Source of the DNA: Aerococcus urinae
GTDB lineage: Bacteria > Bacillota > Bacilli > Lactobacillales > Aerococcaceae
Direction of reading: 5' to 3'
DNA length: 64,000 bases
Assembly (NCBI RefSeq): GCF_001543175.1
Contig: NZ_CP014161.1
Span: 1,910,263 to 1,974,262 of the forward strand
The notes under the pieces were generated by a model, which was not told the DNA's origin, searched no databases, and was given only the letters and a program-made list of their open reading frames with translations. A program made the translations under genes and the position numbers. Shown one piece after another: positions 2,424 through 61,740 of the stretch (the stretch's first letter is position 1; each line of letters starts with the position of its first letter).

Positions 2424-2439
2424 AGGGAAAGAGTGTGAC

Positions 2440-2655
2440 GGATGCACCAAAGATCGATAGAGCTACGCATACTATATCTGTAACTCGCTGACGCTTCGAA
2501 CAGCTATAGCAACTGGAGCTAAAGAGCAAAAATTTTTGAAAAGACTTTCTTGCACTTTAGTGAAGTAGAAGTCGATCTGCAGCCGGAGCAGGTTTGAAAA
2601 GAGTATGATAGTCACGTCAGTGGACATTCGTCCTGTGACTGGAACACGCTTGACA
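2440..2655 (-). repeat. Palindromic repeat family, copy A (minus orientation) plus truncated neighbour
   Basis: Fills most of the gap between the lipoprotein and the activator gene. Positions 2462-2512 are the reverse complement of 21679-21729 with a single mismatch over 51 bp. The outer arms are GGATGCA / TGCAGCC and AGATCGA (2451-2457) / TCGATCT (2572-2578). On the minus strand the unit is preceded by the family's conserved TTTCAAACCTGCTCC block (about 2586-2600). A truncated second unit, carrying the AGTCACAGGACGAA block also found near 21490 and 36280, occupies about 2610-2642. See the origin-proximal copies for the full structure. Confidence 0.75.
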
Positions 2656-2664
2656 AATAATTAA

Positions 2665-21203: not shown

Positions 21204-21344
21204 ATTTTGTCCTTTTGTGTGACTGTCACACTCTCTCCAAACCTGTTCCAAGCGCGAGGTGAGCTCCATTTCAGAAGTCCTTGCAAATCCTCTTTGAGGA
21301 TTTTCGGCGCACTTCTTCCAATGGTCTCCCCTCTTATTGCGCTT
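21204..21344 (+). repeat. Covarying palindromic repeat, unit 1
   Basis: After a remnant tail (21204-21231, containing GTGTGAC-T-GTCACAC) and the conserved block CTCTCTCCAAACCTGTTCC come nested arms. They are AAGCGC/GCGCTT (21250, 21339), GAGGTGAG/CTCCCCTC (one mismatch), CCATT/AATGG, AGAAGT/ACTTCT and AAATCCTC/GAGGATTT, closing on loop TTT. Unpaired TC, CCTTGC and TTCGGC-type segments separate the helices. Confidence 0.8.
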
Positions 21345-21464
21345 GTCACACTCTCTCCAAACCTGTTCCAAGTGCAGAGCAAGCGTCCGCTTCAGAAATA
21401 TTTGTCAATCCTTTTCAAGGATTTCCGCATATTTCTTCCAGCGGTCTTGCTCTTTTACGCACTT
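21345..21464 (+). repeat. Covarying palindromic repeat, unit 2
   Basis: Same leading block (GTCACACTCTCTCCAAACCTG). Arms, all perfect: AAGTGC/GCACTT (21370, 21459), AGAGCAAG/CTTGCTCT (21376, 21446), CCGCT/AGCGG (21387, 21440), AGAAATAT/ATATTTCT (21394, 21429), AATCCTT/AAGGATT (21407, 21417), loop TTC. Each helix differs in sequence from unit 1 yet stays paired. Confidence 0.85.
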
Positions 21465-21752
21465 GTCACACTCTCTAAACCTGCTCCAGTCACAGGACGA
21501 ACGTCCATTTCAAAAACTGTCAACACTCAGTCAAGCTGAGTTCGTACGCTAGCCTTGAAGTTGCTTCAGAAAATTCCAACGCACAGATTCCTGTGCTTTT
21601 GGTATTTTCCTCCAGCAATTCAAGCCTTTGACGGCGTACTCACATCCTAATAGCTGAGTTTATGACAGTTTTCTCCAATTGCTATAGCTGTTCGAAGCGT
21701 TAGCGAGTTACAGATATAGTATGCGTAGCGTTTTCGTCCTTTATCGTGACTG
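21465..21752 (+). repeat. Covarying palindromic repeat, unit 3, interrupted
   Basis: Arms AGTCAC/GTGACT (21488, 21746), AGGACGAA/TTCGTCCT (21494, 21733), AAAACTGTC/GACAGTTTT (21513, 21664) and CTCAG/CTGAG. The apex is split by the 21543-21651 element. An accessory hairpin (21679-21729; CTATAGCTGT pairs with ACAGATATAG, one mismatch) replaces the CCNNT/ANNGG helix on the 3' side. The same 51 bp occurs inverted at 2462-2512. Confidence 0.8.
21543..21651 (+). repeat. Palindromic unit 4 nested inside unit 3
   Basis: Arms GTACGC/GCGTAC (21544, 21634), CTTGAA/TTCAAG (21554, 21619), TTGCT/AGCAA (21561, 21614), AGAAAAT/ATTTTCCT (one bulge), CCAA/TTGG and GCACAG/CTGTGC (21581, 21591) with loop ATTC. 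It is bracketed by direct repeats AGCTGAGTT at 21534-21542 and 21652-21660. It looks like an inserted element with a 9-bp duplication; a branched helix of one larger structure is the alternative. Confidence 0.7.
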
Positions 21753-21776
21753 TCGCACTCTTTTAAATCCCCAAAA

Positions 21777-36257: not shown

Positions 36258-36380
36258 ACTCTATTCAAACGTGCTCCAGTCACAGGACGAACGTCCACTT
36301 CAAAAACTGCCAACACTCAGCTCTGCTGAGCTTATGACAGTTTTCTCCAGTGGTTTCGTCCTCTAATGTGACTGTCGCAC
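36258..36380 (+). repeat. Covarying palindromic repeat, intact copy next to tRNA-Leu
   Basis: Conserved block TTCAAACGTGCTCC. Perfect arms: AGTCACA/TGTGACT (36278, 36367), AGGACGAA/TTCGTCCT (36284, 36355), CCACT/AGTGG (36295, 36349), AAAACTG/CAGTTTT (36303, 36338), CTCAGC/GCTGAG (36316, 36325), loop TCT. It ends with the family tail GTGACTGTCGCACT. This is the uninterrupted counterpart of unit 3 and abuts the 3' end of the tRNA gene. Confidence 0.85.
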
Positions 36381-36387
36381 TTTATTA

Positions 36388-36467
36388 TGCAGGCGATGGG
36401 ATTTGAACCCACACTTCAAAGAAACTGCCGCCTGAAGACAGCGCGTCTGCCGTTCCGCCACGCCTGC
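36388..36467 (-). tRNA. tRNA-Leu (anticodon CAG)
   Basis: An 80-nt class II tRNA. Acceptor GCAGGCG pairs with CGCCTGC, discriminator A. The D-arm contains TGGCGGAACGGCAGACGC. Anticodon stem CTGTC/GGCAG encloses loop TTCAGGC, giving anticodon CAG. A short variable arm TTC-TTT-GAA follows. T-arm GTGGG-TTCAAAT-CCCAT. CCA is not encoded. Choosing a six-base loop would misread the anticodon as TCA; the fully paired stem supports CAG. Confidence 0.95.
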
Positions 36468-61516: not shown

Positions 61517-61548
61517 AAAAAAGTCCGCCTCTAATAAGAGGCGGACTT
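61517..61548 (-). terminator. Terminator of the argG T-box
   Basis: AAGTCCGCCTC pairs with GAGGCGGACTT, then TTTT. The 5' arm sequence AAGTCCGCC also occurs upstream at 61619-61611. Confidence 0.9.
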
Positions 61549-61740
61549 ATCCACGGTACCACTCTAATATCGCAAAATGCTTGCAATGCTTGACATGGTA
61601 ACGCCTGGGTGGCGGACTTAGCTAAGGATTCACTAAGTCATCTCAGCAATGCGCTTCCCACTAGGTCTTTGGAAACTTTCCACTAACGTTCCTCACTGCA
61701 CAAATCCCCTAGCGGTACTCTTTGCTTCATCGATTCTATG
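61517..61740 (-). promoter_or_regulatory. T-box leader of argG, predicted arginine-specific
   Basis: The T-box sequence AGAGTGGTACCGTGG (61565-61551) matches AGGGTGGNACCGCG. Its TGGT would pair with an ACCA tRNA end. Stem I has GAAGCAAAGAGTACC on the 5' side and GGGAAG-CGC-ATTGC on the 3' side. Aligned by eye with the Bacillus glyQS leader (GAAA-GGC-ATTC), this puts the specifier at CGC (61653-61651), an arginine codon. GCAA/TTGC closes the specifier loop. Terminator follows at 61548-61517. Confidence 0.85.

Follow-up and report, generated by a model that had tools for sequence, protein, structure and literature searches.

RUP-type bacterial MITEs are short intergenic elements with many copies and IS-like ends, and the BOX elements of Streptococcus pneumoniae are modular intergenic repeats with hairpin potential. 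In REP/REPIN sequences with RAYT and in integron attC sites, the recognised unit is hairpin DNA, as it would be in the units described below. According to two reports, IS1272, which belongs to the IS1182 family, transposes into stem-loops or inverted repeats and takes their place without target duplication; its targets are hairpins and terminators, and the target stem-loop is lost partly or completely (PMC4923244; PMC5678879). Some IS1272 copies are assigned to "non-IR" targets (PMC5678879), and recognition of structure by IS1272 is proposed from genome comparisons (PMC4923244; PMC5678879).

Here we describe a family of hairpin units found beside oriC, and at many other places, in an Aerococcus-like chromosome. 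Their proposed likeness to IS1272 and TnSha1 would lie in the known traits of the latter, namely hairpin targets including terminators, loss of part or all of the stem-loop, absence of target duplication and 16-bp terminal repeats (PMC4923244; PMC5678879). IS1272-like behaviour is seen in the present material, in an IS1182-family IS of A. tenax that sits in one of the hairpins. Both IS1272 and TnSha1 carry a transposase in those accounts (PMC4923244; PMC5678879), whereas the present units are about 115-175 nt long, non-coding and folded over their full length with covarying arms. The units are short, intergenic in many copies, devoid of coding capacity and bounded by IS1182-like terminal repeats, of which the left one is missing in arrays. 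Judging from sequence comparison, they are probably small non-autonomous MITE-like elements with IS1182-type ends that move by stem-loop replacement, and they are set apart within this known kind by a whole body that is a conserved DNA fold. With RUP-type MITEs as described, they have in common the short length, the intergenic location, the many copies and the IS-like ends; they differ in a shared fold with unrelated arms, nesting in loops, exchange of modules and the lack of a clear target duplication. With BOX elements as described, they have in common the modular, intergenic make-up and the hairpin potential; IS1182-like ends and a common scaffold across genera mark the present family. No earlier description of such a hairpin family was found in the open-licence literature, which was covered in part.

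The window, i.e., the whole 64-kb stretch of DNA analysed, corresponds to positions 1910263-1974262 of the Aerococcus-like chromosome G000, a single contig of 1,974,262 bases. Upstream of dnaA, an array at window 21205-21761 is composed of an orphan right arm, two complete units of ~116 nt and a split third unit. The features of the window are as follows.

near 2430..2660, minus strand: degraded array of one unit with a D module and one centre-deleted unit; limits set by eye, weak R2 match at 2475-2595
21205..21234, plus strand: orphan right arm with R-box (TTTTGTCC..GTCACACTCT)
21239..21354, plus strand: unit 1, A subtype, with L-box, imperfect hairpin and R-box (cmsearch R2, 94.3 bits; fold)
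21359..21474, plus strand: unit 2, A subtype (cmsearch R2, 106.3 bits; fold)
21477-21761, plus strand: unit 3 as a whole, interrupted by a nested unit and a mini-palindrome of ~50 nt
21477..21533, plus strand: left half of unit 3, A subtype, with AGTCACA/GGACGAA arms
21534..21648, plus strand: nested unit, B subtype, in the apex of unit 3 (cmsearch R2, 82.4 bits)
21649..21761, plus strand: right half of unit 3, with the R-box GTCGCACTCT at its end
about 21679..21730, plus strand: mini-palindrome D (TTGCTATAGCTG...GTATGCGTAGCG), ~50 nt, inside the right half of unit 3
36267..36383, plus strand: solitary A-subtype unit, the 36.3-kb copy (cmsearch R2)

These repeats had been pointed out in an earlier note on the sequence, and they are real and far from chance. 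The leading block that the note described as common to the units, CACTCTCTCCAAACCTGTTCC, is indeed shared; it spans, however, two elements of the plan, namely the R-box at the end of one unit and the L-box at the start of the next. The D motif is also found in G003 and G004 by blastn. ORFs overlapping the units are short, and most were judged spurious. A PurR-box-like spacer was noticed and then set aside. The 36.3-kb unit has its R-box end four bases from the 3′ end of a tRNA-Leu gene (36388-36467, minus strand).

A unit is about 112-121 nt long, or about 170 (up to ~175) nt with the left end. The L-box comes first and is followed by the outer helix, which bears a bulge of 4-5 nt on the 3′ side, by the second and the short helix (the latter CCACT/AGTGG, with variants), by an asymmetric internal loop that is conserved (TTC / YTCC), and then by the inner helix, the apical helix with its loop, and the R-box. 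The earlier note was right about the nested helices and about the conservation of the unpaired TTC / YTCC bases. The L-box takes the form AAACSTGYTCC, AGTTGAGYTCG or AGTCGGGTTCG, and the R-box GTCRCACTCT, CTCACATCCT or TCRCACCCT. In other genera, the same hairpin plan is built from unrelated arm sequences. The modules are combined variously: the inner arm AGAAATATTTG, for example, is found within at least three different outer arms. The copy at 1722963, whose left outer arm is of one type and right arm of another, folds badly. Pairing between L-box and R-box (P0) was not relied on, because it is inconsistent between subtypes and one of its pairs is unpaired in 57 of 123 cells.

An optional module, D, is located in Aerococcus in the right internal loop at CCAGT^G (window 21679-21730; L313-L316 and L318), and G201 has at this position a module of different sequence with GTATG in common; the D module would make the hairpin a three-way junction. 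The first piece of arrays in G000 is often an orphan right half whose length varies (e.g., at 440249, 1593441 and 1722950); in such orphans, the R-box end is constant and the left end variable. Full-length solitary units, found in G003, G004, G201, G051 and others, consist of a terminator-like hairpin, about 20 nt and then the L-box hairpin, and near-identical copies have different flanks at both sides. The terminator-like hairpin is GAGGCTGGGACAAAAGTTCCGGCCTC in G003 and GAGGTTGGGACAAAAGTCCCAACCTC in G201. A pattern search for its core found 15 copies in G201, 11 in G003, nine in G004 and two in G000, and none in the element-free G001, G008 and G015 or in the element-bearing G140. Of the 15 cores in G201, 11 stand before a model-found unit and the other four before a unit with an extra module. 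Six of the 11 G003 cores precede a model match; two further ones that were read correspond to a unit with a D module (L318) and to a locus without an intact unit (L317), and each of the last three is closely followed by a blastn match to the D module.

A whole-genome blastn of G000 gave 110 matching pieces. The search that the earlier note had proposed, with a covariance model over the genome and its relatives, yielded a dispersed family. A model from 19 copies has, at E ≤ 0.01 (the E-values are rough) and with the best 150 candidates per genome scored, at least 91 matches in G000 and at least 115 in G003. Covariance model R2 matches 11 of the 15 genomes of the genus and 40 of the 76 of the family, with one to at least 48 matches per genome and many zeros among congeners; across the order, 58 of 295 genomes have matches, and 33 of these genomes lie outside the family. 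No DNA match to the repeat was obtained in phages, and CP127381 of A. tenax (591,691 bases) was the only plasmid record that contained it. This record, though labelled as a plasmid, is apparently a mislabelled piece of chromosome, since it starts with dnaA and carries ribosomal operons, ribosomal-protein genes and rpoBC (L134-L140).

Sister-species comparison revealed turnover of the units. Aligned flanks of the window and A. tenax are about 84-98% identical; at the oriC locus, A. tenax has the orphan arm only, and the window about 525 bases more. Between rpoB and rpoC, both the window's genome and A. tenax have an orphan and one unit, but the units are different. Among 15 Aerococcus genomes, this spacer contains units in G000, G003 and G004, and none was seen by eye in the other 12. 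In G201, near-identical copies are present at ten loci with different flanks.

The compensatory change of the arms claimed in the earlier note was upheld in alignments of 19, 53 and 137 copies. For the 19 copies of G000, 90.5% of cells are paired against 69.5% after shuffling. The corresponding values are 87.6% and 56.4% for 53 copies (49 distinct, from 10 genomes), with two-sided change in 41 of 42 pairs, and 88.5% and 56.2% for 137 copies (123 distinct), with a covariation score of 0.803 against 0.205. Neither the percentage paired nor the covariation score was reached by any of 500 shuffles in any of the three alignments; the count of pairs with two-sided change among the 137 copies, 40 of 42, was also attained in 26 of 500 shuffles. 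The signal collapses in all three when the partner is slid by 1-3 columns. The 53- and 137-copy alignments are model-fitted and lean to the structure of the model, while the 19-copy alignment and a MAFFT alignment (A1) are not model-fitted; in the latter, 18 of 20 predicted pairs show two-sided change.

The two-sided share of pair changes rises with divergence between copies, from 0.06 at ≤3% (a small bin, with one of 17 changes two-sided in 19 sequence pairs) through 0.20, 0.36 and 0.69 to 0.85 at >30%, and is 0.44 with the arms shuffled. That closely related copies differ in one arm and distant copies in both is as expected if pairing is needed to move; resident copies seem to decay arm by arm, with compensation appearing between lineages that continued to spread. 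Arm-to-arm copying by quasipalindrome correction would also keep arms complementary, with no selection on structure, and it would agree with the overwhelmingly two-sided changes of distant copies. Such copying should, however, erase the conserved internal loops, yet these persist across genera, and near-identical copies change mostly on one side; we regard this explanation as very improbable.

Covariation usually counts as proof that an RNA is functional, and the earlier note left the choice between a structured RNA and a folded DNA substrate. The units could be imagined as a 3′-UTR or small RNA that is expressed from the bottom strand, has a function for the host and was spread in some unrelated way. 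In agreement with this, the internal loops are conserved, and mismatches in the core helices are skewed on the top strand, 154 A.C against 42 G.T, which would be G.U on the bottom strand; an early impression that G.T and A.C were balanced (23 against 37) failed on more copies. Furthermore, the stop codon of an opposite-strand ORF of at least 50 codons lies within -9 to +12 nt of the R-box in 29 of 72 units located at array right ends or solitary, against 3 of 52 on the L side, in a count where some loci are orthologous or flank-sharing and some ORFs may be spurious. The A.C excess fits either tolerance of bottom-strand wobble or strand-biased deamination. Bottom-strand wobble amounts to only about 4% of paired core cells, and a C-to-T bias of the coding strand could yield the same skew. 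Rfam contains no family that matches the units at gathering scores, as a check suggested in the earlier note asked, and only weak matches below these scores were obtained over the units. Copy number is patchy within genera, from zero to at least 48. Nesting of units in units, this patchy distribution, the turnover between sister species and the IS1182-like ends argue for a mobile DNA element over a structured RNA: of the two alternatives in the earlier note, the folded DNA or repeat element fits best, and the RNA is an improbable one. Most likely, the covariation marks the folded DNA substrate of a mobile element.

The link to the IS1182 family comes from A. tenax, which has an IS of this family alongside units and composite units. 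Its transposase belongs to the family by NCBIfam NF033551 (358.5 bits against a cut-off of 270), and its ends are GAGTCTGGGACAAAAG and GAGGCTGGGACAAAAG; another copy, on plasmid NZ_CP127383, confirms these limits. The IS sits in the apex of an A-type unit, and the orthologous unit in G000 is uninterrupted. The empty site in G000 reads GGGCGAC-AGATTCTCTATGAGAATCT-TTACTCCC and the filled site in A. tenax GGGCGAC-(GAGTCTGGG..IS..CCAGCCTC)-TTACGCCC; with G000 as the intact reference, the IS exactly replaces the 19-nt apical stem-loop of the unit. Among the unit-host loci examined, an IS1182 transposase was found at the A. tenax locus only, and there is none in the 64-kb window. Of five other IS1182 copies on plasmids, those of Ligilactobacillus salivarius and Limosilactobacillus reuteri have terminal repeats of the same kind; the other three gave no clear terminal repeat by a simple search.

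The ends of the small units are similar to those of this IS. In 46 units picked as solitary, many of which are near-identical (G201, G051, G003) and hence non-independent, the left end agrees with an end of the A. tenax IS at 13 or more of 16 positions in 34 units, where controls average 8.4 and do not exceed 12. The right end does so at 11 or more of 16 in 45 units (control mean 7.1), with the best of 40 control stretches reaching 11 or 12 at four of the 46 loci on the right side. Units within Aerococcus arrays are without the GAGGCTGGG left end, which is a point against the proposed movement.

MITEs commonly have hairpin potential. The units might therefore be ordinary IS1182-type MITEs, in which the terminal repeats alone matter, the long hairpin is carried along or arises as a by-product, and the covariation comes from another cause. 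It is the ends alone that match the IS, as this account would have it; covariation, however, reaches up to the apex around fixed internal loops, and recognition of ends needs none of this. We consider the ordinary-MITE explanation unlikely, but less so than the RNA.

In the favoured reading, that of MITE-like elements moving by stem-loop replacement, a full unit begins with a left IS-like end in the form of the terminator-like hairpin (GAGGCTGGGACAAAAGT...), continues through a spacer of ~20 nt to the L-box and the long hairpin, and closes with the R-box; read on its bottom strand, the R-box (GAGAGTGTGACAAAAGT) is the right IS-like end. An IS1182-type transposase would move such units by removing a target stem-loop, for example a terminator or the apex of another unit, and the element would be put in its place; a unit landing in a terminator may thus bring its own replacement terminator. 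Pairing of the hairpin is presumed to be required for the unit to move, and this would explain the joint change of arms around fixed internal loops. A further possibility, to which we give somewhat less than an even chance, is that DNA shape is what is recognised in the elements, at the two ends of the reaction alike: a hairpin whose scaffold of helices, bulge and internal loop is fixed would be cut out and swapped for a target hairpin, arms would drift freely as long as they pair, whole hairpin modules would recombine and elements would nest. If true, this would be structure-guided transposition, visible as covariation in non-coding DNA.

Tandem folded hairpins with orphan arms recall cassette arrays, and a constant R end with a variable L end recalls 5′ truncation. 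These features would suit sites at which one of three enzymes acts, namely an integron integrase (as at attC), an HUH/Y1 transposase (as at REP) or a reverse transcriptase, and likeness to attC and REP had been raised in the earlier note. Gene presence speaks against each: the integron integrase (TIGR02249) is above cut-off in 0 of 76 family genomes, no Y1 match was obtained in the element-rich G000, G002, G003, G004, G011, G012 and G040, and no RVT_1 match in the element-rich G002, G010-G014, G040, G046 and G064. All three routes were rejected on this ground, the attC and REP comparisons of the earlier note were not supported, and this group of explanations is the least probable of those considered here.

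If covariation reflects a folded DNA substrate here, screens for covariation in intergenic regions could mislead. The family also offers many natural variants for probing how IS1182-type transposases recognise structure instead of sequence. In many Lactobacillales, terminators may have given way to the units and the ends of genes may have been reshaped by them, including at the rpoB-rpoC spacer and in the oriC-side region.

Indirect support for terminators as targets of the small units comes from one convergent intergenic site in genus g30, where inspection by eye found an element in G201 and G098, the latter with its right side cut off, and a plain terminator hairpin in G084, G119 and G147. 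A search for inverted complementarity in the flanks of fresh copies by unanchored local alignment at 32 loci was negative (p 0.49). A junction-anchored test on 23 of these loci was positive, with p 0.00045 when consecutive matches were scored and p 0.0099 when matches in ten were; this test was chosen after seeing the data and after nine loci (L261, L271, L146, L053, L073, L088, L097, L112 and L090) were dropped by eye, some for a wrong or lost left edge and others by no firm rule. It found nothing in the nine G003/G004 loci among the 23. At nested junctions, AG flanks the inserted unit on both sides as read by eye, and this AG might represent a target duplication of 2 bp. The stem-loop-replacement model does not directly account for the orphan right arms at the left edges of arrays or for R-boxes at stop codons. 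At the G000 rpoB-rpoC locus, the stop codon TAG runs into the R-box.

There are further observations at single loci. L106 in G034 and L098 in G057, which belong to two genera, have an identical left flank of 60 nt and units that are nearly the same, which points to a recent transfer of this region. L274 in G122, from another family of the order, contains five model matches within about 6.0 kb. In the window itself, a T-box leader (RF00230, 97.6 bits) is located at 61534-61739 on the minus strand.
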